This document shows, piece by piece, positions 1,236 through 17,443 of a DNA stretch of 64,000 nt (position 1 is the first letter of the stretch; each line of letters starts with the position of its first letter). Origin of the DNA: Falsiroseomonas ponticola (GTDB lineage: Bacteria > Pseudomonadota > Alphaproteobacteria > Acetobacterales > Acetobacteraceae); NCBI RefSeq assembly GCF_016805305.1, contig NZ_JAERQN010000003.1, forward strand, positions 434,001-498,000, read 5' to 3'. The notes beneath the pieces were generated by a model that was not told the DNA's origin, did no database searches, and saw only the letters and a program-made list of their open reading frames with translations. The position numbers and the translations under genes were made by a program.

Positions 1236-3281
1236 CTACTGCCGCTTCGCGCGCTCGGCCTCCCGCAGCCAATCCTCGGTGGTCTTGGTGGTGGGCCGCT
1301 CCGGCCCCGCATAGGGGTCCATCTTGCCGTCGGTCGCGGCGAAGGCGCGGCAATCCTCGCAGAGGCGGAGCAGCGCGAGCTGCTTGCCGTCCCTGAACAT
1401 CCAGTGGCCGCTGGCGGTCAGCTTGGCGGAGACGCGCTCGATCTGGCTCCGCACGCCAAAGGGCTTGGCGCAGCGTTCGCAGCAGAAGGGCTCCTCCTCC
1501 TTCACCACCGCGACCTGCGCGCTGGCGGGGGAGAGGTTGAGGCGCGGCTCCAGCGTGATGACCTTCTCCGGGCAGGTGGTGGCGCAGAGGCCGCATTGGA
1601 CGCAGGCGTCTTCCAGGAAGCGGAGCTGCGGCTTCTCGGGATTGGCCGAGAGCGCGCCGGTCGGGCAGACGGTGGTGCAGGCGACGCAGAGGGTGCAGCC
1701 GGACGTCTCGACCCTGGCAATGCCGAAGGGGGCGAGCGCCGGCATGGGGATGACGGCCTCGCGCTTCTCCGCGCCCTCGGCCAGCGCGCGGCCGGCCTGG
1801 CGCAGGATCTCCCGCGGCTGGCCGATGGCGGCGAAGGTGGCGGGGGGGAAGGGCAGGCCGCGGCGGGGCAGGGCGCGCAGCGCCTCCCCCATCGTGAAGG
1901 GGTCGTCGGTCTCGATCGCCGCGGCGCGGGGGGCGCCGTGGTCCTGCACGCCGAGGCCGGCCAGCACCGTGGTGGCGTAGTCGATGTTGCGGAAGACACC
2001 CTCCGCCCCATGGGCGCGCCGGCCCTTCATCAGCACGCGGATCTGCGCCGCGCCCCAGGCAAAGGCCGAGAGGAAGAAGGCGAGGTCGAGCTGCGAGACC
2101 TCGTTGACCCGCAGCGGCAGCACGCGGGCGGGCAGGCCATCGCCGTGGCGGGCCAGGGCGTCGATCAGCGGCTCGCCATGCTCGGCGTCATGCACCAGCA
2201 GGGCGGGCGCCTCCCCGCCCGCTTCCCGGTAGGTCAGCAGCAGGGTGCGGACGCGCCGCAGCAGCGCTTCGGAGGAGGGGAGCGCGTATTGCGCGGCGCC
2301 GGTCGGGCAGACGGCGGCGCAGGCGCCGCAGCCCGCGCAGATCTCCGCGCTGATCTGCACGCTGTCCTTGCCCGGCGTGATGGCGCCGGTCGGGCAGAGG
2401 TCGAGGCAGCGGGTGCAGGCGGTGCGGCGGTTGCGGGAATGGGCGCAGAGCGAGGCCTCGAAGCTGACGAAGCGGGGCTTGTCGAATTCCCCCACCAGGT
2501 CGCGGGCGCGGGCCACCAGGCGTTCCACCGCGGCGGCATCGGCGGGATCGGCGCGGAGGTAGCCCTGCCGGACCTCATGCGTCGGGAACAGGGGCGTGCC
2601 GCCCGTGAGGTCCACCAGCACGTCGCAGCGGCTGGTCGCGCCATCCCGCGCCGGGCCCCAGTCATAGGAGGCGCGGGAGGAGGGGCGGGGCATCGCGTAG
2701 CCATCCACCGTGACCTCGAAGGCGCCGAGCCAGCCGGTCGCGGCGCGGGCGCGGCCGCGGGCGACGGGGAAATCGGCGCTGCGCAGCGGCGCGACCTTGG
2801 CGCCGCCGGCCAGCAGCACCGTCACGTCCAGCGTCTCCGCCAGCCGGGCGGCGACCGTCAGCGCCGTCTCGTCCCGGCCGAGCACCAGGGTCACGCCCTC
2901 GCTCCGCAGGGGGACCAGGGCCGTGGCGGGCATGGGGACGGCGGCGGCGGCCAGCAGCGCGGCCATCTTGGGGCCGGCCGCCCTGGCGTCATCGGACCAG
3001 CCGGCCGTCTCCCGGATGTTCACGAAGGACAGGTCGCGGGTGAAGCCGGCGGCCTCGGCTTCCTGCTGGAACAGCGGCGCCTGGGCGGTGCAGGCGACGG
3101 TGACGGGGCGGTCCTCCGCCAGCGCGGCCAGGAAGCGGTCGAGCTGCGCCTGGCAGAGCTGCTCCGCCAGGCGGGGCTGGGTGGCGCAGCCGCGGGCGAT
3201 GGCGCGGCCATCGAGCGGCATCGTATCCTCGCAGGAGCAGACGAAGGTCGTGCGCCCGTTGCTGGCGGCGGTGCTGGTCAT
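1236..3281 (-). CDS. Multi-cluster 4Fe-4S ferredoxin-type protein (681 aa) next to the FDH operon
   Basis: This is a large cytoplasmic iron-sulfur protein that probably carries electrons to or from formate metabolism. Four ferredoxin-type cluster motifs are visible: C279/C289/C292/C296, C315/C318/C321/C325, C529/C532/C535/C539 and C560/C563/C566/C570, each pair followed by the usual CP. Two extra CxxC pairs near the C-terminus (C601/C604 and C641/C644) could bind zinc or another cluster. The N-terminal 270 residues are not recognisable, and the middle segment (about 385-430) faintly resembles MvhD-type domains. It is transcribed divergently from the FDH accessory operon, with only 110 bases between starts and a 16-bp palindrome in the gap. 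Proteins of this form are common beside alphaproteobacterial FDH clusters; the precise partner is inferred. Confidence 0.88.
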   Translation of the reverse strand: MTSTAASNGRTTFVCSCEDTMPLDGRAIARGCATQPRLAEQLCQAQLDRFLAALAEDRPVTVACTAQAPLFQQEAEAAGFTRDLSFVNIRETAGWSDDARAAGPKMAALLAAAAVPMPATALVPLRSEGVTLVLGRDETALTVAARLAETLDVTVLLAGGAKVAPLRSADFPVARGRARAATGWLGAFEVTVDGYAMPRPSSRASYDWGPARDGATSRCDVLVDLTGGTPLFPTHEVRQGYLRADPADAAAVERLVARARDLVGEFDKPRFVSFEASLCAHSRNRRTACTRCLDLCPTGAITPGKDSVQISAEICAGCGACAAVCPTGAAQYALPSSEALLRRVRTLLLTYREAGGEAPALLVHDAEHGEPLIDALARHGDGLPARVLPLRVNEVSQLDLAFFLSAFAWGAAQIRVLMKGRRAHGAEGVFRNIDYATTVLAGLGVQDHGAPRAAAIETDDPFTMGEALRALPRRGLPFPPATFAAIGQPREILRQAGRALAEGAEKREAVIPMPALAPFGIARVETSGCTLCVACTTVCPTGALSANPEKPQLRFLEDACVQCGLCATTCPEKVITLEPRLNLSPASAQVAVVKEEEPFCCERCAKPFGVRSQIERVSAKLTASGHWMFRDGKQLALLRLCEDCRAFAATDGKMDPYAGPERPTTKTTEDWLREAERAKRQ

Positions 3282-3391: not shown

Positions 3392-4114
3392 GTGGCGTCA
3401 GAACTGCCCGAATTGCCGTCCGTCTTCGATCCCGTGGTCGCGCTGCGCGAGGGGGGCGACGCCATGGCGCGCGCGGTCGCGCTGGCGCCCCGGCATGGGG
3501 CGGGGACGCTGGCCTGGGTGCGATCCGCGTCCCGCATCGAGGCCGCGGTGGTGCTGGAGCCCGAAATGCCGCTGGCCGCGGCGCGGGGCGCGATCTTCGC
3601 CGGCGCCAGCGCGCTGGGCGATGCGCTGGCGGCCTATGGCCCGCCGGAAGTGCCGCTGACCTTCCACTGGCCGGGGATCGTGCTGGTGAATGAGGGCCAG
3701 GTGGGGCGCATCCGCCTGGCCTGGCCGGAGGGCGCGGCCGAGGCGCGGGAGCCCGCCTGGCTGGTGCTGGGCATGGAGGCGCGGCTGTCCTTCCCGCGGG
3801 GCTGGGAGCCCGGCCACGGGTTGCAGCAGACCGCGGTGTTCGAGGAAGGCTGGTCGGAGGAGGAGGTCTCCGCCGCGCAGCTGACCGCCGCCTGGGCGCG
3901 GCACCTGATGGCGAACCTCGCGGAATGGCAGCGCACGGGGCCGGGTTCCGGCTTCTCCCGCATGGCGGAGCGCTACCTGGCCCGGCTGGCGCGCCAGGCC
4001 TGGATGGGGGAGGCGCGGCGGGGGATCGACCCGGCGACGGGCGACCTGGTGCTCGAGGATGAGGGGACGCGGAGCCGCTACCCGCTGGCCGATGCGCTGG
4101 CGGTGACGGCATGA
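3392..4114 (+). CDS. Biotin/lipoate--protein ligase family protein (DUF4444 type)
   Basis: This 240-residue protein is of the biotin/lipoate ligase-like group that carries a DUF4444 C-terminal region and occurs beside formate dehydrogenase genes in alphaproteobacteria. A GTG at 3392 is chosen because GGAGGAA (3374-3380) sits about 11 bases ahead; the frame extends further back, but only as an unlikely upstream peptide. The stretch LTFHWPGIVLVNEGQVGRIR resembles the ligase core, and the C-terminus ends in a conserved-looking TGDLVLEDEGTRSRYPLADAL segment. Whether it ligates a cofactor or is only structurally related is unknown. It starts the operon and overlaps the next gene by ATGA. Confidence 0.8.
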   Translation: MASELPELPSVFDPVVALREGGDAMARAVALAPRHGAGTLAWVRSASRIEAAVVLEPEMPLAAARGAIFAGASALGDALAAYGPPEVPLTFHWPGIVLVNEGQVGRIRLAWPEGAAEAREPAWLVLGMEARLSFPRGWEPGHGLQQTAVFEEGWSEEEVSAAQLTAAWARHLMANLAEWQRTGPGSGFSRMAERYLARLARQAWMGEARRGIDPATGDLVLEDEGTRSRYPLADALAVTA

Positions 4115-4674
4115 GCGGCCGCCTGCCGCGCACCCTGCGGCTCGACCCCTCCGACACCGTGATCTTCGAACAGGCGGCGGAGCCGGGCGAATGGGCCGTG
4201 CCCGGCGCCTTCGAATTCTGGGACGAGGATCCCGCCGGGATGGCGGGCAAGCGGCGGCAGGCCTTCCGGGGGGGCTTCCTCGGGCTTGCGAGCTTCGGCT
4301 GGTCCACGCTGGTGGAGGTGGCGCCGGCGACCGCCACGCAGCGGGAGGCGGCCATCGGCGCGCTGGCGCGGCATATCCGCGCGCAGCATGGCGCCCCGGA
4401 CGACGGCGCCGCCCGCGCGGCGGCGCTGGAGGAGATCGGCTTCGCGGAAAGCCTCTGCGAGGGGCATGAGGTCGGCACCGTGCTGGCGCTGTCCCGCAGC
4501 CTGGAGGAGGGGGAGGTGCGGGAGCGGTTCCGCACGCTCCACCTCCGCGACACGCCCCATGTCAGCTTCAACGCCCTTCCGGTCTTCGGGATGGTGACGG
4601 TGGAGGGCGAGGATGACCCGGTGGAGCGGCCTGACCTGATGAACCTCGGTACCCGCGGGGGTGACCGCGCATGA
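4111..4674 (+). CDS. DUF6505 family protein (FDH-associated)
   Basis: This is a 187-residue soluble protein with no signal peptide or membrane segment. Its sequence (starting MSGRLPRTLRLDPSDTVIFE) matches my memory of the DUF6505 family found next to formate dehydrogenase clusters. It contains a GAFEFWDEDPAGMAGKRRQAF segment but no recognisable catalytic motif. Its start overlaps the preceding stop as ATGA and its own stop overlaps the next start the same way, so the three proteins are likely made in matched amounts. Its role is unknown; a part in FDH maturation is inferred from position only. Confidence 0.82.
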   Translation: MSGRLPRTLRLDPSDTVIFEQAAEPGEWAVPGAFEFWDEDPAGMAGKRRQAFRGGFLGLASFGWSTLVEVAPATATQREAAIGALARHIRAQHGAPDDGAARAAALEEIGFAESLCEGHEVGTVLALSRSLEEGEVRERFRTLHLRDTPHVSFNALPVFGMVTVEGEDDPVERPDLMNLGTRGGDRA

Positions 4675-5738
4675 GCGGCAACACGCCGCCCGGGCTGATG
4701 CCCCCTGGTCTTCTGCCGGGCGATTTCTGGGTCGCCTCCGGCCACCACCTCTGCGACCGGGACGAGGAGGGGCGCATCCATGGCACGCCGGACCTCTGGC
4801 GCGCCTTCTGCGCCCGGCCGGAGCTGGTGCCGCCGGAGGAAGCCTGCGACGCGGAGCGGGCGCTGCATGCCTCGCTGATGGCGGAGCCGATGCGGGCGGT
4901 CAGCGAGGCGGAGATCGCGGCGCTGGCCGACCCCGACGCGCAGGAGAATTTTCGCGTCTTCCTCGGCTTCCGGGATCGCGTGGTGGCGGAGCCCTGCCTC
5001 GAAGCCGCCTGGCTGGCGCTGTACCGGCAGGGCGTGGCGGGAATCCCGCCGATCTTCCTGCAGATGCTGACGCATCTCGTGACGCGGTCCGCGCTGGAAG
5101 GCGTGGGCGATCCCTTCACGCTGCGCGCCGCGGAACTGCTGTTCCGCACCCAGCGCGTCGCGATCCACCAGGGCGCGCTGCTGGTGGCGGATGAGGAGAT
5201 CCTGGACCACAAGGGCGGCGATGGCGGCTATGGCGCGCTGGGACAGCTGCTGGTGGAGGCCGGCGCCCAGCCGCGGGAGGTCGAGGTCGATGTCCTCTCC
5301 GAGGATAATGGCCATCTCTATCCCGGCCGGTCGGATGCGCATGACTTCGCGCTGGACATCGCGGAGGGGCGGCCGGGGCAGCACGGGCTGGCCCGCGCGC
5401 TGGAACGCTTCATCGGCCATGTCATCGGCGAACAGGTGACGATCCGCCCCGTGCCCGTCATCGAGGACCGCAACTGGACCTGGCATGTCGGGCTGGATGC
5501 GGAGGCGACGGCGATCGCCAACGACCTCTGGCAGGGCAAGAAGGTGAAGCAGGCCAGGCTGGCGCGGATCATCTGGCTCGGCGTGCTCGACTTCGCGGAG
5601 GCGTCGCGCGTGCTGCCGCGCGTCGCGGGCAAGCCGGTGTACCTGGCGGTGGCGATGGATGCGGCGCAGAAGCTGCGGATGAAGCCGCAGAACCTGGTGG
5701 CCGGGCTGCCGCTGCGGGCAAGGGAGGATGCGGCGTGA
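4671..5738 (+). CDS. DUF6352 family protein (FDH-associated)
   Basis: This is a 355-residue soluble protein of unknown function. It begins MSGNTPPGLMPPGLLPGDFWVASGHHL, and the LLPGDFW...SGHHL segment looks like the family's N-terminal signature. It is largely helical in character and has no membrane segment or cluster-binding Cys array. It is coupled by overlapping stop/start codons to DUF6505 upstream and DUF3305 downstream, inside the FDH operon. Members of this family appear to travel with FDH genes, so a maturation, assembly or regulatory job is plausible but not shown. Confidence 0.82.
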   Translation: MSGNTPPGLMPPGLLPGDFWVASGHHLCDRDEEGRIHGTPDLWRAFCARPELVPPEEACDAERALHASLMAEPMRAVSEAEIAALADPDAQENFRVFLGFRDRVVAEPCLEAAWLALYRQGVAGIPPIFLQMLTHLVTRSALEGVGDPFTLRAAELLFRTQRVAIHQGALLVADEEILDHKGGDGGYGALGQLLVEAGAQPREVEVDVLSEDNGHLYPGRSDAHDFALDIAEGRPGQHGLARALERFIGHVIGEQVTIRPVPVIEDRNWTWHVGLDAEATAIANDLWQGKKVKQARLARIIWLGVLDFAEASRVLPRVAGKPVYLAVAMDAAQKLRMKPQNLVAGLPLRAREDAA

Positions 5739-6355
5739 GCGTGCCGCGCCACCCCGATTCCATCGCGGTGCCGGTCGCCGTCATCGCCGAACGCCGGCCG
5801 GGCGTGACGAAATGGGTGGAGCATGTCTGGCAGGCGGTGGAGGTGCTGGAGGATGCGCCCCCCGTGCCCGCCTGGACGAAGCTGCGGGAGGAGGGCGGCC
5901 GCGCGCTGTTCTTCGCCGGCGTCGCGGAGGTGGTGATGCACCCCACCGACACGGACAACTACAAGCACAACCTGGAATCCGCGCAGCCCCTGGTCTGGGT
6001 GCTGCTGCGACCGACGGAGGCCGAGCCGGGCATGGCGCTGCAATCGGTGCTGGTCGATCCCGGGGAGGCGCATCTGCACGCCGATGTCGGGCAGGACCTG
6101 CTGGAGGCGCTGCCCATGCCGCCGGGGCTGCGCGCCCTGGCGACCGACTTCGTCGCCCGCCACCACAAGGAACGCGGCTTCTACAAGCGCAAGCGCGACC
6201 AGGCGAACCCGGAGGCCCTCGCGCGGAGCGCGAATCCGGAGGCCCTCGCGCGCAGCGCGGATCCGGAGGCCTTCGCGCGGAGCGCGAATCCGGAGGCCCT
6301 CCCGCGGAGCGCGAAACCGGAGCAGGCGCGGCGGATGCCGGAGGATGAGGCGTGA
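5735..6355 (+). CDS. DUF3305 domain-containing protein with a repeat tail
   Basis: This 206-residue protein carries a DUF3305 domain over about residues 5-155; it opens with SIAVPVAVIAERRPGVTKWV and includes a central YKHNLES segment. DUF3305 genes sit upstream of FDH structural genes in many alphaproteobacteria; function unknown. The domain ends in a basic patch (FVARHHKERGFYKRKRDQ). After it comes a tail made of four 9-residue repeats of the NPEALARSA type, encoded by 27-bp units at 6206-6313. The tail looks like a lineage-specific expansion and is probably disordered. The stop overlaps the DUF3306 start (ATGA-type coupling). Confidence 0.88.
   Translation: MSVPRHPDSIAVPVAVIAERRPGVTKWVEHVWQAVEVLEDAPPVPAWTKLREEGGRALFFAGVAEVVMHPTDTDNYKHNLESAQPLVWVLLRPTEAEPGMALQSVLVDPGEAHLHADVGQDLLEALPMPPGLRALATDFVARHHKERGFYKRKRDQANPEALARSANPEALARSADPEAFARSANPEALPRSAKPEQARRMPEDEA
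6206..6313 (+). repeat. Four tandem 27-bp coding repeats in the DUF3305 gene
   Basis: Units run 6206-6232, 6233-6259, 6260-6286 and 6287-6313, with a fifth partial start after that. Each encodes a variant of NPEALARSA and differs from its neighbours at only a few bases. The unit contains a GCGCGGAGCGCG-like motif that can fold on itself. The near-identity points to recent slippage-type expansion. Confidence 0.9.
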
Positions 6356-7044
6356 GCGGCACGGAGGAGCCCGGCTTCCTCGGCCGCTGGTCCCGCCGCA
6401 AGCGGGGGATCGAGGCCGAGGCGCCGCCGCCGGCCGAGGCCGCCGCGGCGCCCGAAGCCGCCCCCGAACCCGCGCCGGTCGCGAAGTCCGGCACCTGCCC
6501 CATCCCGGGGATGGAGCCGATCGACCTTTCGACCCTGCCGCCGATCGAGGAACTCTCCGTCACCAGCGACCTGGCGCCCTTCCTGCGGCCCGGCATCCCG
6601 GCGGCGCTGCGGTCCGCTGCGCTGCGGCGGATGTGGAGCCTGGACCCGGCGATCCGGGACTATATCGGCCCGGTCGAATACCAATGGGACTTCAACACCC
6701 CCGGCGGGCTGCCCAATGGCTTCGCGTCGGAGCTGGTGGGCGATGTGCGCAAGCTGCTGGCCCAGGCGATCGGGGAGGTGGAGGAGAAGCCGCCGGCCCA
6801 GGAAACCGCCGAGGAAACCGCCCAGGAAACCGCCCCGGAAGCCGCCCCCGCGGAGGAGGCGCCTGGGCCCGCGCCGGCGGCCGCGCCACCCGCGCAGGCC
6901 CCGGCCATGCTGCCGCCGGACGCGACCCTGGCGGCGCCCGCGCCCACCGCCCTGCCTTCCGCCACGCTGGCCGCGCTGCCGCCGGAGGAGGGGGCACCGC
7001 CGCCAGCCCTGCGCCGCCGGCATGGCGGGGCCCTGCCGGCCTGA
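6352..7044 (+). CDS. DUF3306 domain-containing protein
   Basis: This 230-residue protein begins with the DUF3306 hallmark FLGRWSRRKRG, a positively charged N-terminus. The recognisable core (about residues 45-140) includes LRRMWSLDPAIRDYIGPVEYQWDFN. The last 85 residues are low-complexity Glu/Thr/Ala/Pro, including repeated QETAEETA-like units. No membrane segment or enzyme motif is visible. It pairs with DUF3305 in FDH gene clusters; the two are presumed to act together in assembly of the enzyme, but no activity is known. Its N-terminus overlaps the DUF3305 stop. Confidence 0.88.
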   Translation: MSGTEEPGFLGRWSRRKRGIEAEAPPPAEAAAAPEAAPEPAPVAKSGTCPIPGMEPIDLSTLPPIEELSVTSDLAPFLRPGIPAALRSAALRRMWSLDPAIRDYIGPVEYQWDFNTPGGLPNGFASELVGDVRKLLAQAIGEVEEKPPAQETAEETAQETAPEAAPAEEAPGPAPAAAPPAQAPAMLPPDATLAAPAPTALPSATLAALPPEEGAPPPALRRRHGGALPA

Positions 7045-7203
7045 CTTGGCGCGGGGCCGGCGCCGGGGCCGTGCTGTTTTTCGGGGCATGGCCGGCCTGC
7101 ATTCCGATCAGCCCGGTTGGATAATGTCGAAAAACTTGGTACGCTCTGGCGTGCGCTGGCGGAATCCGATAGGGGACCGCCGCTGGGGAAGCGTGACGGC
7201 GGG

Positions 7204-7803
7204 ATGACAAACGAGGAAAGCAGGGCCAGGGTCGATGCCGTGGATGCGGAACGGGCTCGCCTGTTCGCGCTTCTCGGGCGTCTCCTCGGGCATGCGCCGG
7301 ACGCGGCCCTGCTGGCGCGCCTCAAGCTGCTGCCGCCCGGGCCCGGTGAACTGGGGGAGGCCTATGCGGCGCTCTCCGCCGCCGCCGCCGCCACCACCGC
7401 CGAGGCCGCGGAGCGCGAATTCTTCGACCTGTTCATCGGCGTCGGGCGCGGGGAGCTGCTGCCCTATGCCTCCTACTACCTGACCGGCTTCCTGCATGAA
7501 CGGCCGCTGGCCGATCTGCGCGGCGACCTCGGGCGGCTCGGCGTGGAGAAGGCCGAGGGGATCGCGGAGCCCGAGGACCACATCGCCTTCGTCTGCGAGG
7601 TGCTGGCCGGGCTGATCGCGGGCGCCTTCGGGGCGGAGCCGGAGCAGGCGAACGAATTCTTTACCCGCCACATGCGCCCCTGGGCCGGGCGCTTCTTCGC
7701 CGACCTCGAACGCGCGGAGATGGCGGGGTTCTACAAGGCGGTGGGCCGGCTGGGCCGCACCGTGATCGAGATCGAGGCCGCGGCAGCCGACCTGCCGGCC
7801 TGA
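7204..7803 (+). CDS. TorD/DmsD-like molybdoenzyme chaperone
   Basis: This 199-residue all-helical protein is of the TorD family. These cytoplasmic chaperones bind the Tat signal of a molybdoenzyme and hold it until cofactor is inserted. The family features EREFFDLFIGVGRGELLPYASYYL and a later AEPEDHIAFVCEVLAGLI (the E-P-x-D-H-I signature) are present. I start it at the ATG at 7204 (MTNEESRAR); a TTG at 7117 would add 29 residues but lacks a ribosome binding site. The likely client is the formate dehydrogenase alpha subunit encoded just downstream, with its twin-arginine leader. Confidence 0.9.
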   Translation: MTNEESRARVDAVDAERARLFALLGRLLGHAPDAALLARLKLLPPGPGELGEAYAALSAAAAATTAEAAEREFFDLFIGVGRGELLPYASYYLTGFLHERPLADLRGDLGRLGVEKAEGIAEPEDHIAFVCEVLAGLIAGAFGAEPEQANEFFTRHMRPWAGRFFADLERAEMAGFYKAVGRLGRTVIEIEAAAADLPA

Positions 7804-7829
7804 TGGGTTTCCAAGGGGAGTTGGGTACC

Positions 7830-8054
7830 ATGAGCGAACAAGGGACGGAAAAGTCCATCCGCCGGGGCTTCCTGAAGGCGCTGGGCCTGGGCACGGCGGC
7901 AGCCGCCGCCGCGGCGCCCGCGCTGGCGCAGCGCGCGGATAGCGTGCCCTCGCGCGATGCGCGGAAGGAGAATGAGCAGCAGCGCCTGGCCGCCCGCTAC
8001 AAGGCGGATTCGGCGCATGTGCGGGCCTTCTACCGCACCAATGGCTACGAATAG
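7830..8054 (+). CDS. Formate dehydrogenase region Tat-target small protein
   Basis: This 74-residue protein has a twin-arginine-like leader (KSIRRGFLKALGLGTAAAAA) and an ALAQ cleavage site. It matches the small family described as 'formate dehydrogenase region TAT target'. The ATG at 7830 follows AAGGGGAG (7813-7820) at good spacing; an ATG at 7803 that overlaps the torD stop would place nine extra residues before the leader and is less likely. The mature part (about 45 residues, rich in Arg/Asp/Lys) has no known motif. It is probably exported to the periplasm alongside the FDH alpha subunit, but its role is unknown. Confidence 0.87.
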   Translation: MSEQGTEKSIRRGFLKALGLGTAAAAAAAPALAQRADSVPSRDARKENEQQRLAARYKADSAHVRAFYRTNGYE

Positions 8055-8072: not shown

Positions 8073-10994
8073 ATGCTGATCAAGCGCTCCGAAGGCAAGG
8101 CCGCGCGCCAGCGCCTGGCCGCCGCCTACCAGGGTCTCTCCTCCGGCGGGCTCGACCGTCGCAGCTTCCTCCGCCAGGCGGGCTTCGGCGCCGCGGGTCT
8201 CGCGGCGCTGGGCGCCATGGGGCCGGGCCGCGCGCAGGCGAGTGGCGCGGCGACCGGCGTCGCCGACCTGTCCAAGCCCATCCAGCGCATCCGCAACATC
8301 TGCACCCATTGCTCCGTCGGCTGCACGGTGGTGGCCGAGGTGCAGAACGGCGTGTGGGTGGGGCAGGAGCCGGCCTGGGAAAGCCCGATCAACCGCGGCA
8401 CGCATTGCGCCAAGGGCGCCAGCGTGCGTGAGCTGGTGCATGGCGACCGCCGCCTGAAGTACCCGATGAAGCTCGTCGGCGGGCAGTGGCAGCGCATCAG
8501 CTGGGATGTCGCGCTGAACGAGATCGCCGACCGGATGATGAAGATCCGGGCGGAGAGCGGGCCGGACAGCATGTTCCTGCTGGGCAGCGCCAAGTTCTCC
8601 AACGAGGGCGCCTACCTGTTCCGCAAGTTCGCGGCCTTCTGGGGCACCAACTCCGTCGATCACCAGGCGCGCATCTGCCACTCCACGACGGTGGCGGGTG
8701 TCGCGAACACCTGGGGCTATGGCGCCCAGACGAACAGCTACAACGACATCCGCAATTCCAAGACCATGATCATCATGGGCGGGAATCCCGCGGAGGCGCA
8801 TCCCGTCTCGCTGCAGCATGTGCTGAGCGGCAAGGAGCGGAACCGCGCGAAGCTGATCGTCATCGACCCGCGCTTCACCCGCACGGCGGCGCATGCGACG
8901 GACTATGTCCGCATCCGCCCGGGCACGGACATCCCCATCATCTGGGGCATGCTGCACCACATCTTCGCCAATGGCTGGGAAGACAAGCAGTTCATCGCGC
9001 AGCGCGTCTTCGGCATGGATGAGATCCGCGCCGAGGTGGCGAAGTGGACGCCGGCCGAGGTCGAGCGCGTCACGGGCGTGCCGGGCGAGCAGCTGAAGAA
9101 GGTGGCGCAGACCTTCGCGACCGAGAAGCCCGCGACGCTGATCTGGTGCATGGGCGCCACGCAGAAGACGGTCGGCACGGCCAATGTCCGCGCCTTCTCC
9201 ATCCTGCTGCTGGCCACGGGCAATGTCGGCCTGGAAGGCACCGGCGCCAACATCTTCCGCGGCCACTGCAACGTGCAGGGCGCGACGGACTTCGGCCTCG
9301 ATGTCGGGACGCTGCCGGCCTATTACGGGCTGGACGAGGGCGCCTGGCGTCACTGGAGCCGCGTCTGGAACGTGCGCTACGAGGACATGGTGGCGCGCTT
9401 CGACAGCCCCGCCATGATGACCACGCCGGGCATCCCGACCACGCGCTACTTCGACGCCATCACCCTGCCCAAGGACCAGATCCAGCAGCGTGACCGGGTG
9501 AAGGGCATGCTGGTGGTGGGCCATGGCGGCAACACCGTCACCCGCATGCCGGAAGCGGTGAAGGGGCTGGAGGCGCTGGACCTGCTGGTCGTGGCCGACC
9601 CGCACCCCACCACCTTCGCGGTGCTCGGCAACCGGCGGGAGAACACCTACCTGCTGCCGATCTCGACGCAGTTCGAATGCGACGGCAGCCGCACCGCCTC
9701 CAACCGCTCCGTCCAGTGGGGCGCGAAGGTCGTCAACCCGATCTTCGAATCCAAGAACGACTACGAGATGATGTACCGGCTCTGCGGCGCGCTGGACGGC
9801 GCGGCGCAGCGCAGCAACCAGGCGATCCGCTTCCAGCAGGAGATCTTCAAGACCTTCGAGGTGCGGGACAACGCGCCGACGGCCGAGAGCATCCTGCGGG
9901 AGATCAACCGCGGCGCGCTGTCCACCGGCTATACCGGCCAGTCCCCGGAACGCCTGAAGCTGCACATGGAGCACCAGGACAAGTTCGACCTGGTGACGCT
10001 GCGCGGCCGCGCCGGCACGCCGGTGGAGAACGAGTTCTACGGCATGCCCTGGCCGTGCTGGGGCAAGGCGGAGTGGAAGCACCCGGGCAGCCACATCCTC
10101 TACAACACCAACCTGCATGTGAAGGATGGCGGCGGCACCTTCCGCCCGCGCTTCGGCGTGGAGCGCAACGGCGTGACGCTGCTGGCGGAAGGCAGCTGGT
10201 CCAAGGGCTCCGAGATCCAGGACGGCTACCCCGAATTCACCACCGCCGTGCTGCGGCGCCTCGGCTGGTATGACGACCTGACCGCCGAGGAGAAGAACTG
10301 GATCGAGAGCAACGGCGGCAACTTCTCCTGGGCCACCGACCTGTCCATGGGCATCATCCGCGTGGCCATGGAACATGGCTGCGTGCCCTACGGCAACGGC
10401 AAGGCCCGTGCGGTCGCGTGGAACCTGCCCGACCCCGTGCCGGTGCACCGCGAGCCGATCTACACGCCGCGCACCGACCTGATCGCGCAGTACCCGACGC
10501 TGCCGGACCGCCGCGGCTTCCGCATGCCGCATCTCGGCGTGACGGTGCAGAACCGCAGCCACCAGGTGGCGCGCGACTTCCCGATCATCCTCTCCTCCGG
10601 CCGCCTGGTCGAATACGAGGGTGGCGGCGAGGAGACGCGGTCCAACAAGTGGCTGGCCGAGCTGCAGCAGGACATGTTCGTCGAGATCAACCCGGCCGAT
10701 GCCGCGGCGCGGAACATCCGCGACGGCGGCTGGGTCTGGGTGACGGGGCCGGAGAACCAGGCCCGCGCCCGCATGAAGGCGCTGGTGACGGAGCGCGTGG
10801 GCCGGGGCGTGGCCTGGATGCCCTTCCACTTCGCCGGCCACTTCATGGGCGAGGACCAGCGGCGCCGCTACCCGCAGGGCACGGACCCGATCGTGCTCGG
10901 CGAAAGCGTGAATGCCGTCACGACCTACGGCTACGACCCGGTGACCTTCATGCAGGAAACCAAGGTCACTCTTTGCCAAATCCGCGCGGCCTGA
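8073..10994 (+). CDS. fdhA: Formate dehydrogenase alpha subunit, Cys-type, Tat-exported
   Basis: This is the 973-residue catalytic subunit, oxidising formate to CO2 at a bis-MGD molybdenum or tungsten centre. The Tat leader is at residues 27-50 (DRRSFLRQAGFGAAGLAALG). One 4Fe-4S cluster is ligated by C77, C80, C84 and C112. The metal ligand and its partner are C202-H203 (RICHSTTVAG), so this is the cysteine rather than the selenocysteine form. The bis-MGD and C-terminal molybdopterin-dinucleotide domains follow, up to ESVNAVTTYGYDPVTFMQETK near the end. The leader predicts a periplasm-facing enzyme, with the beta and gamma subunits downstream completing a membrane complex. It is preceded by its likely chaperone gene. 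Confidence 0.96.
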   Translation: MLIKRSEGKAARQRLAAAYQGLSSGGLDRRSFLRQAGFGAAGLAALGAMGPGRAQASGAATGVADLSKPIQRIRNICTHCSVGCTVVAEVQNGVWVGQEPAWESPINRGTHCAKGASVRELVHGDRRLKYPMKLVGGQWQRISWDVALNEIADRMMKIRAESGPDSMFLLGSAKFSNEGAYLFRKFAAFWGTNSVDHQARICHSTTVAGVANTWGYGAQTNSYNDIRNSKTMIIMGGNPAEAHPVSLQHVLSGKERNRAKLIVIDPRFTRTAAHATDYVRIRPGTDIPIIWGMLHHIFANGWEDKQFIAQRVFGMDEIRAEVAKWTPAEVERVTGVPGEQLKKVAQTFATEKPATLIWCMGATQKTVGTANVRAFSILLLATGNVGLEGTGANIFRGHCNVQGATDFGLDVGTLPAYYGLDEGAWRHWSRVWNVRYEDMVARFDSPAMMTTPGIPTTRYFDAITLPKDQIQQRDRVKGMLVVGHGGNTVTRMPEAVKGLEALDLLVVADPHPTTFAVLGNRRENTYLLPISTQFECDGSRTASNRSVQWGAKVVNPIFESKNDYEMMYRLCGALDGAAQRSNQAIRFQQEIFKTFEVRDNAPTAESILREINRGALSTGYTGQSPERLKLHMEHQDKFDLVTLRGRAGTPVENEFYGMPWPCWGKAEWKHPGSHILYNTNLHVKDGGGTFRPRFGVERNGVTLLAEGSWSKGSEIQDGYPEFTTAVLRRLGWYDDLTAEEKNWIESNGGNFSWATDLSMGIIRVAMEHGCVPYGNGKARAVAWNLPDPVPVHREPIYTPRTDLIAQYPTLPDRRGFRMPHLGVTVQNRSHQVARDFPIILSSGRLVEYEGGGEETRSNKWLAELQQDMFVEINPADAAARNIRDGGWVWVTGPENQARARMKALVTERVGRGVAWMPFHFAGHFMGEDQRRRYPQGTDPIVLGESVNAVTTYGYDPVTFMQETKVTLCQIRAA

Positions 10995-11012: not shown

Positions 11013-11609
11013 ATGGCTCGGATGAAGTTCCTCTGCGACAGCGACCGTTGCATCGAGTGCAACGCCTGCGTCACCGCCTGCAAGAACGAGCACGAGGTGC
11101 CCTGGGGCATCAACCGGCGCCGCGTCGTCACCATCAATGACGGCCGGCCGGGCGAACGCTCGATCTCCATGGCCTGCATGCACTGCACGGACGCGCCCTG
11201 CGCCGCCGTGTGCCCGGTGTCCTGCTTCTACACGACGGCGGATGCCATCGTGCTGCATGACAAGGATCTGTGCATCGGCTGCGGCTACTGCTTCTACGCC
11301 TGCCCCTTCGGCGCGCCGCAGTATCCGCGCGTCGGCAACTTCGGCGGCCGCGGCAAGATGGACAAGTGCACCTACTGCGCCGGCGGGCCGCAGCAGGACG
11401 GCACGCTGGTGGAATACACGCAGTACGGCTCCAACCGCATCGCGGAAGGCAAGCTGCCGCTCTGCGCGGAGATGTGCTCCACCAAGGCGCTGCTGGCCGG
11501 CGATGGCGAGATGATCGCCACCATCTACCGGGAGCGCGTGCAGAAGCGCGGCTATGGCGCGGGCGCCTGGGGCTGGCGCACGGCGTATCGCGAGAATGTC
11601 GCGGTCTGA
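11013..11609 (+). CDS. fdhB: Formate dehydrogenase beta subunit, four 4Fe-4S clusters
   Basis: This 198-residue electron-transfer subunit of the DMSO-reductase-family FeS type carries sixteen cluster cysteines, visible as C13/16/19/23, C55/58/63/67, C87/90/93/97 and C119/122/151/155. They form the expected wire from the molybdenum centre to the membrane cytochrome. It has no signal peptide and would be exported together with the alpha subunit. It is shorter than FdnH and has no C-terminal anchor helix, so the gamma subunit must provide attachment. The gene follows fdhA after 18 bases. Confidence 0.95.
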   Translation: MARMKFLCDSDRCIECNACVTACKNEHEVPWGINRRRVVTINDGRPGERSISMACMHCTDAPCAAVCPVSCFYTTADAIVLHDKDLCIGCGYCFYACPFGAPQYPRVGNFGGRGKMDKCTYCAGGPQQDGTLVEYTQYGSNRIAEGKLPLCAEMCSTKALLAGDGEMIATIYRERVQKRGYGAGAWGWRTAYRENVAV

Positions 11610-11625
11610 TCCCGGGGGAATGGCG

Positions 11626-12657
11626 ATGAACTGCATCACCCGGGCGCTTGCCGCCGCCGTCCTGGCCTTCGGCCTGGGCGGCCCGGCGCTGGCCCAGATC
11701 GGCGGGCCCGTGACGGGCACGCCGAGCAACCCGATCACCAGCCCCGGCACGGCCGATGAGCTGGAGCTGATGAAGGCGCTGAACGGCGGCCGCATCGCCG
11801 GGCGCGTCTCCATCCCCGATGCGCAATCCGCCAGCCTGATCCAGCCGGAAGGCCGGGAATGGCGCGACTTCCACAACAGGACGCTGACCTGGGTGGGTGG
11901 CATCGCCGTGCTCGGCATGCTCGGCATCCTGGTCGTCTTCTACATGACCAAGGGCCGCATCCGCATCGATGCCGGGCCGGCGGGGCGCACCATCAAGCGC
12001 TTCAACGGGTTCGAGCGCGCGGCGCATTGGATGACGGCGACGTCCTTCGTGGTGCTGGGGCTCTCCGGCCTCAACCTGACCTTCGGCCGCTTCCTGCTGC
12101 TGCCGGTGATCGGGCCGGAGGCGTTCACCGCCGTCAGCCTCTGGGGCAAGATCGCCCACAACTACCTGGCCTTCCCCTTCACGCTCGGCATCGTCCTGCT
12201 GTTCCTGGTCTGGGTGAAGGACAACATCCCGAATGCGCGCGACATCGCCTGGTTCAAGGCGGGTGGCGGGCTGCTGGGCCGCGGGCACAACCACCCGGAA
12301 GCCGGCCGCTTCAACGGCGGGCAGAAGATGGTGTTCTGGATCACGGTGCTGGGCGGCGCGCTGGTCGCGGCTTCCGGCTACATCCTGATCTTCCCCTTCA
12401 CGGTCACGGACATCGCGGGGATGCAGCTGGCGCACATCGTGCACGGCGTGCTGTCCGTGCTGATGGTGGCCGCGATGATCGCCCACATCTACATCGGCTC
12501 CGTCGGCATGGAAGGCGCCTTCGATGCCATGGGGTCGGGCGAGGTGGACCTGAACTGGGCCAAGGAACACCACTCCCTCTGGGTGGAGGAGGAGATGGCG
12601 AAGGCGCGGGAGACCATCGGCGGCCCCGCCGGCGCCAAGGCCGCTGGCGCGGACTGA
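11626..12657 (+). CDS. fdhC: Formate dehydrogenase gamma subunit, cytochrome b556-type membrane anchor
   Basis: This 343-residue protein has a cleavable signal (residues 1-22, ending PALAQ), a long periplasmic N-terminal stretch, an extra transmembrane helix at about 88-106, and the four-helix cytochrome b core. Candidate haem ligands are in ERAAHWMTA, AHNYLAF, LAHIVHG and IAHIYIG. It passes electrons from the beta subunit to quinone. I choose the ATG at 11626 because GGGGGA ends seven bases ahead; the ATG at 11620 would abut it. The gene ends the FDH operon, with a strong terminator beginning 19 bases after the stop. Confidence 0.93.
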   Translation: MNCITRALAAAVLAFGLGGPALAQIGGPVTGTPSNPITSPGTADELELMKALNGGRIAGRVSIPDAQSASLIQPEGREWRDFHNRTLTWVGGIAVLGMLGILVVFYMTKGRIRIDAGPAGRTIKRFNGFERAAHWMTATSFVVLGLSGLNLTFGRFLLLPVIGPEAFTAVSLWGKIAHNYLAFPFTLGIVLLFLVWVKDNIPNARDIAWFKAGGGLLGRGHNHPEAGRFNGGQKMVFWITVLGGALVAASGYILIFPFTVTDIAGMQLAHIVHGVLSVLMVAAMIAHIYIGSVGMEGAFDAMGSGEVDLNWAKEHHSLWVEEEMAKARETIGGPAGAKAAGAD

Positions 12658-12710: not shown

Positions 12711-12727
12711 ATGTCTGGAACATGCCC

Positions 12728-13246
12728 ATGACGCGGTTGATCGGACTGGCCGGCTGGAGCGGCGCCGGCAAGACGACGCTGATGACGCGCCTGATCCCCG
12801 CCATGGCGGCGCGCGGCATCGGCGTCTCCACCCTGAAGCACGCGCACCACGCCTTCGACATCGATCGGCCGGGCAAGGACAGCTACGAGCATCGCGCGGC
12901 GGGGGCGCGGCAGGTGCTGGTGGCTTCCGCCCATCGCTGGGCGCTGATGACGGAGCATCGGGGCCAGCCGGAGCCGCCGCTGAAGGCGTTGCTGGCGCAG
13001 CTGGCGCCGGTGGACCTGGTGATCGTGGAGGGCTTCAAGCGCGACCACCACCCGAAGATCGAGGTGCATCGCGGCGCCAACGGCAAGCCCTGGCTGCACC
13101 CGGAGGACCCCCATATCGTCGCCATCGCCAGCGACGTCGCCCCGCCGGAGGCGCGGCTGCCGGTCGCGCATCTGGACGAGATCGAGGGGATCGCCGATCT
13201 GGTGCTGGGCCACGCGATTACGCTGGAGGCGTTTCTCCGGCGGTAG
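12728..13246 (+). CDS. mobB: Molybdopterin-guanine dinucleotide biosynthesis protein MobB
   Basis: This 172-residue P-loop GTP-binding protein assists MobA in attaching GMP to molybdopterin. Walker A is GWSGAGKTTL at residues 9-18, followed by the family motifs STLKHAHHAFDID, DSYEHRAAGA and VEGFKRDHHPKIEVHR. The ATG at 12728 is preferred over the one six bases earlier, because the GGAA at 12717-12720 is then properly spaced. It directly follows the FDH terminator and precedes moeA, which fits its job of supplying bis-MGD to the formate dehydrogenase. Confidence 0.94.
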   Translation: MTRLIGLAGWSGAGKTTLMTRLIPAMAARGIGVSTLKHAHHAFDIDRPGKDSYEHRAAGARQVLVASAHRWALMTEHRGQPEPPLKALLAQLAPVDLVIVEGFKRDHHPKIEVHRGANGKPWLHPEDPHIVAIASDVAPPEARLPVAHLDEIEGIADLVLGHAITLEAFLRR

Positions 13247-13258
13247 GGGAAGGGAGCC

Positions 13259-14506
13259 ATGGCGCAACTCAGCGATGACTGCTTCGCCTTCGGCGGGAAG
13301 CTGATGTCCGTGGAGGAGGCGCAGGCGCTGATCGAGGCGCGGATCCCGCCGGCCGGGGGACGGGAAAGCGTGGCGCTGCGCCAGGCCACCGGTCGCGTGC
13401 TGGCGGAGGATCTGCGCGCGCGCACGCCGCTGCCGCCCTTCTTCAACTCGGCCGTCGATGGCTATGCCTTCCGCCATGCCGACCTGGCGGCGGAGGGGCC
13501 GACGCGCCTGCCCATCGCCGCGCGGCTGCAGGCCGGGCAGGCGGCGGCGGGCCTTTCGCCCGGCACCGCCATCCGCATCTTCACCGGCGCGCCCATGCCC
13601 GATGGCGCGGATACGGTGATGATGCAGGAGGATGCGCGGGAGGAGGATGGCGCGGTGCTGCTGGTGCCCGGCCTCAAGCGCGGTGCCAATTGCCGCCCGG
13701 CCGGGGAGGATGTGGCCGCGGGCCAGGTCGCGCTGCCGGCGGGCACGCGGCTCGGCCCGGCGGCGATCGGGCTGGCCGCGGCGCTGGGTTTCCGGGACGT
13801 GCCGGTCAGGCCCCTGGTGCGCGTCGGCGTCTTCTCCACGGGGGATGAGCTGGCGGATCCCGGCATGCCGCTCGGCCCGGCGCAGACCTATGACAGCAAC
13901 CGCTTCACCCTGCTGGCGCTGCTGGCCGGGCTGCCGGTGGAGGCGCATGACCTCGGCATCCTGCCGGATGAGCCGGCGGCGACGGCGGCGGCGCTGGCGC
14001 GGGCGGCGGCGGGGCATGACCTGCTGCTGACCTCGGGCGGCGTCTCGACCGGGGAGGCCGACCATGTGAAGGCGGCGATCGGGCAGGGCGGGCGGCTGGT
14101 GTTCTGGCGGCTGGCCATCAAGCCGGGGCGGCCGGCGGCGATGGGGGTCGTCGAAGGCGTTCCCGTGGTGGGGCTGCCGGGCAACCCGGTGGCGGCCGTC
14201 GTCACCTTCCTGCACCTGGCGCGGCCGCTGGTGCTGCGCCTGGCGGGCGCGGCGCCGGACAGCCTGCCGCGCTTCACCGCGCGGGCCGACTTCGCCTATC
14301 GCAAGAAGGCGGGGCGGCGCGAATATGTCCGCGTCCGCCTGGCCTTCGGGGCGGGGCTGCCGGTGGCGCGGAAATATGCGCGGGAGGGGGCGGGGCTGCT
14401 GACCTCCCTGACCGAATCCGACGCCTTCGCGGAACTGCCGGAGGATGTGACGGCGGTCGCGCCGGGCGACGAGCTGCGCATCCTGCCCTTCCGCGCGGTG
14501 TTCTGA
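13259..14506 (+). CDS. moeA: Molybdopterin molybdenumtransferase MoeA
   Basis: This 415-residue protein inserts molybdate into adenylylated molybdopterin. The expected domains are present: the N-terminal segment with PFFNSAVDGYAF, the substrate-binding GAPMPDGADTVMMQE, the MoCF-type core with TYDSNRF and TSGGVSTGEADHVK, and LPGNPVA before the C-terminal beta domain. GGAAGGGAG lies just ahead of the ATG. It is 12 bases downstream of mobB and ends six bases before the convergent Ntn-hydrolase gene. Confidence 0.95.
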   Translation: MAQLSDDCFAFGGKLMSVEEAQALIEARIPPAGGRESVALRQATGRVLAEDLRARTPLPPFFNSAVDGYAFRHADLAAEGPTRLPIAARLQAGQAAAGLSPGTAIRIFTGAPMPDGADTVMMQEDAREEDGAVLLVPGLKRGANCRPAGEDVAAGQVALPAGTRLGPAAIGLAAALGFRDVPVRPLVRVGVFSTGDELADPGMPLGPAQTYDSNRFTLLALLAGLPVEAHDLGILPDEPAATAAALARAAAGHDLLLTSGGVSTGEADHVKAAIGQGGRLVFWRLAIKPGRPAAMGVVEGVPVVGLPGNPVAAVVTFLHLARPLVLRLAGAAPDSLPRFTARADFAYRKKAGRREYVRVRLAFGAGLPVARKYAREGAGLLTSLTESDAFAELPEDVTAVAPGDELRILPFRAVF

Positions 14507-15568: not shown

Positions 15569-15584
15569 GGCCCCCGCCCTCAGC

Positions 15585-15710
15585 TCAGAGGCGCACGCCC
15601 TCGGTCGTGAAGCGCTGGTCGGCGGTGCGCTGGAAGTTCTGGTCCAGCACGACATAGGCGCCGATGGCGATGACGACGGCCGCGAGGGCGCCGGTCAGGA
15701 CGGATTTCAT
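15585..15710 (-). CDS. 41-residue single-pass membrane peptide
   Basis: An ATG at 15710 preceded by GGGGAGAA opens a 41-codon frame: MKSVLTGALAAVVIAIGAYV, then VLDQNFQRTADQRFTTEGVR and a final L. Residues 4-22 form one membrane helix or an uncleaved signal, with a short polar periplasmic tail. The strong ribosome binding site and the sensible membrane topology support a real gene despite its size. It lies between mobA and the Ntn-hydrolase gene in the same orientation. I do not recognise a named family. Confidence 0.75.
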   Translation of the reverse strand: MKSVLTGALAAVVIAIGAYVVLDQNFQRTADQRFTTEGVRL

Positions 15711-15740: not shown

Positions 15741-16391
15741 CTACTCTATCGGTGCAACATTGCCGGCTTGCAAGTGGCTGGCCGCCTGGGCGGCGATGCG
15801 CTCGGCCTCCGCCAGGTCTTCCGGGGCATTGGCGTTGAAGAAGGGGTCGAAGGGATCGGCCGGCCAATCGGCATGGGCGCAGCCATGGCGGGCGGTCCAG
15901 CGGTCGATCTTGCGCTCGCCGGCCAGCAGCGCGGCGCGGAGGTCATGCCGCAGCGCGACGGGCCAGAGGCCGATGGGCGGATGCGCCTGGCCGGCGGAGC
16001 GGGCGCAGGACAGCGTCACGCCGGCGGCTTCCCGGGCGGCGTGCAGGCGCGCCACCAGGTCGGCGGGGATGAAGGGCGCGTCGCCGGTCAGCGACACCAC
16101 CCAGGGCAGGCCCGGATGCGCCGCCGCCGCGTGATCGAGCGCGGCGAGGATGCCGGCCAGCGGGCCGGGATGGTCCGGCAGCGTATCCGCCACCACCGGC
16201 AGGCCATAGCTGGCGAAGCGGGCGGGATCGCCATTGGCGTTCAGGATGAGGGCCGGCACCTGCGGGCGCAGCCGGTCCAGCAGGTGGTCCAGCAGCGGGC
16301 GGCCGGCGACCAGGCGCAGCGGCTTGTCCCCGCCCCCCATGCGCCGCGCCAGGCCGCCGGCCAGGATGACGGCCAGCGTGTCACTCCGCAT
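15741..16391 (-). CDS. mobA: Molybdenum cofactor guanylyltransferase MobA
   Basis: This 216-residue nucleotidyltransferase transfers GMP from GTP to Mo-molybdopterin. It has the signature [20 protein letters not shown] at residues 6-25 (GTP loop), [25 protein letters not shown] and [10 protein letters not shown] with the metal-binding Asp. The ATG at 16391 overlaps the end of fdhD by 11 bases, so the two are cotranscribed; this fits cofactor delivery to formate dehydrogenase, whose operon is about 4 kb away. Confidence 0.95.
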
Positions 16392-17289
16392 CGCGCGCCG
16401 TCGCCTCCGCTTGGGCTTCCAGGCTGTTCTTGCGCCAGTGCTTGGCGCTTTCCTCCGGCACATAGGCGGGGTCGGCGTCGAAGACGATGCGGCTTTCGCC
16501 GGCGAGTGCCACGAAGCGCTTGCCCTTGCAGCGGCCGATCAGCGTCAGGTTGGCCTCCCGCGCCAGCTCCACCCCCCAGGCGGTGAAGCCGGAGCGCGAC
16601 ACCAGGATGGGGATGCCCATGCGGACGGTCTTGATGACCATCTCCGAGGTCAGGCGGCCGGTGGTGTAGAAGATCTTGTCCTCCGGCCCTTCGCCGTTGC
16701 GGAACATCCAGCCCGCGATCTTGTCCACCGCGTTGTGGCGGCCGACATCCTCCATGTAGACGATGGGCTGGTCCTGCCGGGCGAGGGCGCAGCCATGGAT
16801 GGCGCCGGCCTCGAGGTAGAGGCTCGGCAGCGTGTTGATCCGGTGCAGCAGGCGGTAGAGCCAGGATGTCCTGATCTCGGCTGACATCGGAAGCCGAGCC
16901 TGAGAAAAATCCTCCATGAGGTCGCCGAAGGCGGTGCCCTGGGCGCAGCCGGAGGTGAGGGTCTTCTTCTTCAGCTTCTCCTCGAAGTTCGTCCTGGCAT
17001 CGGTGCGGACGACGACGACCTGGAGATCCTCGTCATAGTCGATCGCGGCAATCCGGTCTTGCCGTTTCAGCATACCCTGGTTGAGGAGGTAGCCGATGGC
17101 GAGGTCCTCCGGCCGGTCGAGGATGGTCATCATCGTCACGATCTCCTGCCCGTTGAGGTAGAGGGTCAGGGGGCGTTCGACGGTGACGCTGGTCTCGATG
17201 GGCTGGCCGAGGTGATCGATGCCGGTGACACGGCGTGTCAGGCGCGGATCGGCGGGGTCGGGCTGCACGCGAAGCGGGGTATCGGTCAT
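16381..17289 (-). CDS. fdhD: Formate dehydrogenase accessory sulfurtransferase FdhD
   Basis: This 302-residue protein transfers sulfur from a cysteine desulfurase to the bis-MGD cofactor before it enters formate dehydrogenase. The conserved loop is [11 protein letters not shown] with C115; the second Cys of the usual CxxC pair is absent. Further family motifs are [41 protein letters not shown] and [13 protein letters not shown]. The ATG at 17289 is chosen because the family N-terminus (pairs of [11 protein letters not shown]) follows; no strong ribosome site is seen. A LuxR-type regulator is transcribed divergently 153 bases away. Confidence 0.95.
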
Positions 17290-17371
17290 GCCGTGCAGGG
17301 TGGGGTGGGGGCGGCCGGGCTGCAAGCGGGGCGGTCGGCCTGGCGGGGGCGGCACTTCCCGCGCGCAGAGC

Positions 17372-17385
17372 GGAACATCTGTTCC
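17372..17385. promoter_or_regulatory. Inverted repeat GGAACA-TC-TGTTCC, candidate operator
   Basis: GGAACATCTGTTCC has perfect 6-bp arms around a 2-base centre. It lies in the 153-base gap between fdhD (minus) and the LuxR-type regulator (plus), about 70 bases from the regulator start. The spacing suits a homodimer, so autoregulation or control of fdhD-mobA is plausible. Confidence 0.5.
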
Positions 17386-17407
17386 ACCATGACGCGCTTT
17401 TGGGACT

Positions 17408-17443
17408 GTAACAGGCGACGCGCATAGTGCTATTCTGTATTCG
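17408..17443 (+). promoter_or_regulatory. Possible sigma70-type leaderless promoter of the regulator gene
   Basis: GTAACA (17408-17413) and TATTCT (17431-17436) are separated by 17 bases. Each matches the consensus at four of six positions. Transcription from here would begin at about 17443, the first base of the GTG start codon, and no ribosome binding site precedes that GTG. Confidence 0.4.

Follow-up and report, generated by a model that had tools for sequence, protein, structure and literature searches.

Five genes at the head of a formate dehydrogenase operon in Falsiroseomonas ponticola as candidate accessory factors for a probable tungsten enzyme

The window analyzed here is a 64,000-nucleotide stretch of the 6.7 Mb genome of Falsiroseomonas ponticola (contig NZ_JAERQN010000003.1), and it contains an operon for a membrane-bound formate dehydrogenase (FDH) in which the first five genes are those for a biotin/lipoate-ligase-like protein (hereafter ligase-like), DUF6505, DUF6352, DUF3305 and DUF3306. 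With evenly balanced confidence, drawn from sequence comparison, we propose that the products of these five genes help, as accessory proteins, to make a Cys-type tungsten enzyme of the FDH3/SoFdhAB type and that the genes fall into two modules. The tie of this accessory set to the enzyme is strong, and its tie to the tungsten cofactor is plausible. DUF3305 and DUF3306 would belong to the core and be tied to MobA-FdhD, and the ligase-like protein, DUF6505 and DUF6352, in some loci together with DUF6494, would be accessory. Family assignments in the window are from Pfam and NCBIfam profile searches of open reading frame (ORF) translations, and the genes up to and including the enzyme are as follows.

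3392..4114, forward strand: ligase-like protein, PF16917 (BPL_LplA_LipB_2), E 8.8e-46, 156 bits against a cut-off of 27; canonical ligase motifs absent; related to PDB 3bfm
4111..4674, forward strand: DUF6505, PF20115, Pfam E 2.1e-57; low-confidence structure model
4671..5738, forward strand: DUF6352, PF19879, Pfam E 5.7e-69; confident structure model
5735..6355, forward strand: DUF3305, PF11749, Pfam E 1e-31; covers the second half of NF011058
6352..7044, forward strand: DUF3306, PF11748, Pfam E 3.4e-23
7204..7803, forward strand: NarJ/TorD-type chaperone, PF02613, Pfam E 6.6e-31; the longest ORF starts at 7117
7830..8054, forward strand: small protein with a twin-arginine translocation (Tat) signal, like TIGR02811 ('formate_TAT'), 39 bits, below the cut-off of 48.45
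8073..10994, forward strand: FdhA, the catalytic subunit; related to SoFdhA (9vap_A), a tungsten enzyme
11013..11609, forward strand: FdhB, FDH3 beta, NF038355 335 against a cut-off of 240; relative of 9vap_B
11554..12657, forward strand: FdhC, cytochrome b subunit, TIGR01583 above cut-off; real start probably 3' of 11554

The tie to the enzyme is seen most directly in the distribution of these families over 240 evenly drawn alphaproteobacterial genomes, in which FdhA was called at E <= 1e-150 and found in 36 (genomes are cited by our G numbers, fetched loci by L numbers). DUF3305 and DUF3306 are each present in 37 genomes, which are all 36 FdhA genomes and G125. DUF6352 is present in 31 (30 of the 36 FdhA genomes and G007), and DUF6505 is above cut-off in 24 (22 of the 36, G119 and G228), with matches below cut-off in G091 and G202 left out. 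PF16917 overall occurs in 156 genomes, ordinary ligases included; the ligase-like group was hand-picked by high score or, for example in G044 and G233, by linkage to DUF6352, matches outside it such as those in G087 and at G228:C31 being taken as ordinary ligases, and it is present in 25 genomes (24 of the 36 and G228). At least one accessory-module gene is found in 33 of the 36 FdhA genomes. A sequence-only reading of the region had proposed this co-occurrence check and named families occurring commonly without any FDH as evidence to the contrary; no such pattern was found in the 240 genomes, as outside the FdhA genomes each family is above cut-off in only 1 or 2 of 204. These counts come from family searches; the gene-picking step missed true genes under long spurious frames. 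FdhB was counted by a strict single-sequence search (70 matches), a drifting profile (230) having been discarded. G228 is probably not a true exception because in this draft, which is 80% complete, the ligase-like gene has an FdhC gene beside it. The weak DUF6505 match in G119/L095 (5362-5793), a genome without FDH, has an internal stop and the appearance of a decaying or distant copy.

The association does not depend on the genes being neighbors. When the 16 genomes with linked copies are removed, FdhA is present in 14 of 15 DUF6352 genomes versus 6 of 209 genomes without DUF6352 (p 9e-17, or 1e-13 after dropping three fragmentary cases). The tie thus persists for unlinked copies and is not mere hitchhiking. 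Ten taxonomic families contain both FdhA states among the listed rows, further mixed families being possible, and in nine of them DUF6352 and DUF3305 track FdhA. A phylum-wide draw of 309 genomes yielded DUF6352 in 18; all 8 of these that were tested have FdhA, as do four more that were already in the first set. Four of the 8 belong to other classes of the phylum, where the genes are far apart.

The sequence-only reading had given the gene list ahead of FdhA as above, and Pfam confirms every family in it, the TorD-type chaperone included. It had also described the first five genes as overlapping, and four junctions indeed have 4-base stop/start overlaps (4111-4114, 4671-4674, 5735-5738 and 6352-6355). 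The same 4-base overlaps are found elsewhere between the ligase-like gene and DUF6505 (54 of 69 loci), DUF6505 and DUF6352 (57 of 66), DUF6352 and DUF3305 (42 of 65, with 5 apart and 1 on the opposite strand) and DUF3305 and DUF3306 (50 of 81), counts that are not independent because up to 50 of the loci (L001-L050) come from one group of close relatives. The further claim that five genes are welded into the FDH operon describes the window, where they are adjacent and overlapping, and does not extend to many other genomes, in which two modules part company; we therefore dropped the view of a single five-gene unit. The core module is DUF3305-DUF3306-TorD-Tat-FdhABC, with DUF3305 no more than 15 kb from FdhA in 33 of 36 FdhA genomes. 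The accessory module is ligase-like-DUF6505-DUF6352, often with the 68-residue DUF6494, and it can sit away from FdhABC. The ligase-like gene and DUF6505 are together in 19 of the 20 genomes sharing both. Of 30 genomes, 16 have DUF6352 no more than 15 kb from FdhA and 14 do not, although in G157, G064 and G001 the separation may be a contig-end artifact. In some loci the accessory module has as neighbors an Mrp-type ATPase, a periplasmic binding protein (PBP)-type regulator, a MoaA-like gene or tup genes. DUF6494 (63-68 residues) is a sixth uncharacterized partner of the ligase-like/DUF6352 module; it occurred in at least 16 of the fetched loci (for example L130 8763-8969, L133 15398-15604 and L163 11775-11966) and was not found in the window. 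Additionally, a WD40-repeat-like protein recurs near FdhC or the accessory module in L096, L133 and L094, the Pfam search covering L096.

The sequence-only reading had named a bis-molybdopterin guanine dinucleotide (bis-MGD) FDH and had missed the metal, which by its relatives, its MoeA and a TupA-like gene is very probably tungsten. The closest PDB chain to FdhA is 9vap_A at 1230 bits, the next scoring 297, and FdhB matches 9vap_B with 317 bits. 9VAP is SoFdhAB of Shewanella oneidensis, an oxygen-tolerant Cys-tungsten enzyme of two subunits (PMC13397495). In our reading the ICHS stretch of FdhA would carry the metal-binding cysteine. The region had been taken to end at 8054, which is too short, since after FdhABC the operon continues in the same direction with MobB and MoeA, and the opposite strand carries MobA and FdhD 1-2 kb past MoeA (15741-17181):

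12722..13246, forward strand: MobB
13259..14506, forward strand: MoeA; KPGR and NPVA, both pocket residues as in the tungstate insertase MoeA1
15741..16463, reverse strand: MobA
16486..17181, reverse strand: FdhD sulfurtransferase domain, within ORF 16381-18555

The tungsten enzyme MeFDH1 of Methylorubrum extorquens requires MoeA1, MobB and FdhD. There moeA1 lies in a cluster with mobB and tupBCA, and Arg291 and Ala312 set its product apart from molybdenum insertases (PMC13197769). The window MoeA has IKPGRP and NPVAA, that is, Arg in KPG[K/R] and Ala in NPV[S/A], which are both tungstate-insertase residues; by these pocket residues it is of the MoeA1 type and a preference for tungsten is predicted. 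Among 37 MoeA matches in the fetched loci, 32 of which come from the close relatives L001-L050, 33 are readable by pattern and have Arg and Ala at both sites. The remaining four are KPGR/NPAA in L107, a molybdenum type in L108/G122 and two that are cut off. The three other readable MoeA proteins of the same genome have RPGK/NPVS, KPGK/NPVA and KPGK with a divergent second site, so that none has both residues. In all, this genome has six MoeA_N matches (one below cut-off), paralogues with differing pocket residues, and two of the six were unread. About 225 kb away lies a gene (G000:C23:212112-212903) with an ATP-binding cassette (ABC) ATPase neighbor and a PBP-type regulator; its best and sole NCBIfam match is NF041772, the tungstate-binding TupA, at 207 bits, below the cut-off of 400. 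NF041772 was the best family for all four such proteins tested (190-239 bits versus 400), and we call them TupA-like because they score below cut-off. TupA-like matches are found in 33 of the 36 FdhA genomes versus 46 of the 204 others.

Several observations weigh against the proposal. TupA-like genes occur in those 46 genomes without this FdhA. Since nearly all FdhA genomes have TupA, profiles cannot part a role for tungsten from a role for FDH3. G122 has the full gene set with no TupA match and a nearby MoeA of molybdenum type (RPGK/NPVS), and G071 (82% complete) and G229 have FdhA with no TupA match. A role for tungsten only was dropped in view of these three exceptions. G075, G194 and G229 have FdhA without any accessory-module gene, and of the 36 FdhA genomes 14 have no DUF6505 and 12 no ligase-like gene; the accessory module can thus be dispensed with. 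In the tenth mixed family, f125, DUF3305/3306 are present both in G229 (with FdhA) and in G125 (without), and DUF6352 is in neither. Neither DUF6352 nor DUF6505 gave an informative fold match. Finally, the Fisher tests of the families against FdhA (p from 1e-19 to 5e-42) treat genomes as independent.

The case of G122 would fit an alternative to which we give an appreciable though minor probability, in which the DUF proteins are metal-blind FDH3 factors that act on FdhA ahead of its Tat export, in folding, loading or proofreading, and tungsten is incidental. The position of DUF3305 close to FdhA and beside the TorD and Tat genes is in its favor, as is the precedent of FdhE, which is thought to act in this way on other periplasmic FDHs and for which a specificity for such FDHs is reported (PMC10609526). 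It is opposed by DUF copies without FdhABC in genomes with TupA. In G125/L141 (8683-11030), FdhD-MobA-DUF3305-DUF3306 are consecutive, with no FdhA within the fetched 20 kb and TupA elsewhere; the pair follows FdhD-MobA and not an export substrate. In G007, which has no FdhA of this type, DUF6352 is directly beside TupA, and another contig has tup genes, FdhD and MobA as well as fragments of an FDH of the NAD type. What the genes have in common in these two draft genomes may therefore be tungsten and not FdhABC. The gene row in G125 also bears on DUF3305 itself. The NCBI model NF011058 (MobA with a DUF3305 domain) is matched in its first half by the window MobA and in its second half by the window DUF3305, and together these points lead us to place DUF3305 tentatively between MGD formation and delivery. 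A DUF3305-DUF3306 pair on an Azospirillum lipoferum plasmid (L175 8881-10054) has no annotated FDH within 9 kb, in an incomplete annotation.

The nearness of tup genes could also mean that the module acts upstream of the cofactor and senses, stores or detoxifies tungstate wherever it is imported for FDH. In 13 genomes no more than 12 kb separates TupA from an FDH or DUF gene, and in several loci the module stands next to DUF6494, to the PBP-type regulator and to tup genes. However, 50 of 79 TupA genomes are without DUF6352, so most tungstate importers in the set manage without it, and we consider this explanation improbable.

Within the accessory module the ligase-like protein is the most informative member. 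It is homologous over most of its length to PDB 3bfm (E 2.4e-16). Biotin ligases have a KWPND motif with the catalytic lysine and a GRGRxG ligand loop. A profile rebuilt from trimmed domains gave 75 matches, 74 of them aligned and 49 of those from L001-L050, in place of the 143 of an earlier drifting profile. The KWPND lysine is absent in all 74 aligned ligase-like proteins, K[WL]PND occurs nowhere in any of them (0/74), and GRGRxG is likewise found in 0/74; among the 25 commonest patterns the stretch is usually xGAGTLxW. The BirA-like protein of the same genome retains both motifs, with GRGRDGRAW as its loop. As the catalytic lysine is gone and the ligand loop replaced, the ligase-like protein is probably a binder and not a ligase.

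Roles for DUF6352 and DUF6505 are suggested by their gene company alone. The DUF6352 model is confident (predicted local distance difference test score 85.1), with a best VIA Z of 3.5 over 54 residues against the PDB and no Foldseek PDB match at E <= 0.001; the low-confidence DUF6505 model had no informative PDB fold match. Searched by sequence against the PDB, DUF6352, DUF6505, DUF3305 and the Tat protein had no convincing match. In DUF6352, Cys59 is conserved in 27 of 30 proteins with no CX2C pattern, and no conserved Cys was listed among 22 diverse rows of DUF6505. A likeness of these two proteins to FdhE, which has four CX2C motifs and is specific to periplasmic FDHs (PMC10609526), was dropped for want of conserved CX2C motifs. 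The same absence of a conserved redox-center cysteine pattern in DUF6352 and DUF6505 argues against the five proteins being further subunits or electron-transfer or regulatory parts of the FDH complex, as does the description of solved SoFdhAB as two subunits (PMC13397495). Operon position and co-occurrence would agree with such a role, which we regard as highly improbable. As a side observation, DUF6505 has a weak, sub-threshold resemblance to DUF7715 (E 0.005).

In the pathway that we favor, tungstate would enter through TupABC and be inserted by MoeA-MobB, MobA would then form tungsten (W)-bis-MGD and FdhD would sulfurate it. DUF3305 and DUF3306 would act at the hand-off from MobA/FdhD to FdhA, the accessory module around the motif-less ligase fold would hold an intermediate, either apo-FdhA or the W-pterin cofactor, and serve as a carrier or checkpoint without catalytic function, and TorD would shield the Tat signal until FdhA is loaded. 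The shared assembly or repair step of the sequence-only reading survives as a functional tie to FDH with assembly likely; there is no evidence for repair. A more specific version, which we think rather unlikely, is that ligase-like-DUF6505-DUF6352(-DUF6494) is a dedicated tungsten-cofactor hand-off complex, in which a re-used ligase fold without its ligation chemistry, with DUF6352 as a partner whose fold is unrecognized, holds W-pterin or the apo-enzyme and keeps W-bis-MGD apart from Mo-bis-MGD in aerobes.

Plasmid copies show these genes together with those for metal supply. A 24 kb block of Sinorhizobium meliloti pB (L177, 409500-433500), a plasmid typed as conjugative, has a MoeA-like gene, a TupA/ABC/TupB-like trio, a regulator, DUF6494 and a ferredoxin-like gene together with the five genes, TorD, Tat and FdhABC, and also another MoeA (KPGR/NPVA), MobA and FdhD. 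On a Microvirga plasmid the operon has MobB, a MoeA with KPGR/NPVA and MobA in its vicinity, and a Pseudosulfitobacter plasmid has it without DUF6352 and with tup genes and Mrp. The whole tungsten-FDH trait may thus be mobile as one unit.

The remaining features of the locus concern gene starts and neighbors. A GTG start of the ligase-like gene at 3392 is plausible, with GGAGGAA upstream, and 7204 and 7830 are the more likely starts of TorD and the Tat protein. The small Tat protein of the sequence-only reading does match TIGR02811, at a score below cut-off. The TorD-type chaperone is well above the PF02613 cut-off (107.6 versus 22.2 bits) and below the NCBIfam equivalog cut-offs for TorD/DmsD proper (54.3 versus 132 and 38.6 versus 162 bits). 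The window DUF6352 is 95% identical to its F. algicola counterpart. A promoter/terminator scan of the window gave matches at chance level only. Between MoeA and MobA, at 14513-15655 on the reverse strand, is an ORF resembling a C45-family autoproteolytic acyltransferase, below cut-off. One further gene is divergent from the operon and recurs beside this FDH; many of its cysteines are invariant among copies in the fetched loci:

1236..3281, reverse strand: 681-residue protein with ferredoxin-type 4Fe-4S domains

For the ligase-like gene, DUF6505 and DUF6352, no role was found in the open-access PMC literature, papers elsewhere being possible. We take SO4504 and SO4505 of Shewanella to be DUF3306 and DUF3305. 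SO4503 (FdhD), SO4504 and SO4505 (conserved hypotheticals), SO4506 and SO4509 (FdhA) changed in one regulator mutant (PMC2535785). The separation of tungsten from molybdenum in cofactor assembly of aerobic bacteria is incompletely understood (PMC13197769), and attempts to produce MeFDH1 in E. coli come to a halt at its alpha subunit, general chaperones notwithstanding (PMC13396061). If the proteins described here are specific maturation factors, they would form a short candidate list for deletion and co-expression, and orphan families, including the motif-less ligase fold solved as 3bfm, would be joined to one pathway.

Comparison with known systems shows similarities and differences. DUF3305/DUF3306 were reported beside FDH operons in 2015, in 60% of the dmsD-linked ones (PMC4464133). 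These TorD/DmsD-fdh operons resemble the window in having DUF3305-DUF3306 upstream of FDH together with ferredoxin-type and Tat genes; the portion of the report at hand calls the pair putative membrane proteins and gives no tested role, and DUF6505 and DUF6352 are absent from its text. FdhE is similar in being an accessory to periplasmic FDHs and differs in its four CX2C motifs, none of which is conserved in DUF6352 or DUF6505 (PMC10609526). The ligase-like protein is a relative of 3bfm, a solved biotin protein ligase-like protein 'of unknown function'. The Methylorubrum MoeA1-MobB-FdhD pathway is matched by MobB and a MoeA with both residues in the window, by MobA and FdhD nearby and by the TupA-like gene elsewhere in the genome; however, that work, in the portion at hand, concerns the cytosolic MeFDH1 and does not include tests of the five families (PMC13197769). 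SoFdhAB is homologous to FdhA and FdhB across nearly their full length with the ICHST cysteine stretch conserved, whereas the window additionally has FdhC and the ligase-like/DUF6505/DUF6352 module, a comparison made with the enzyme and not with the Shewanella genome (PMC13397495).

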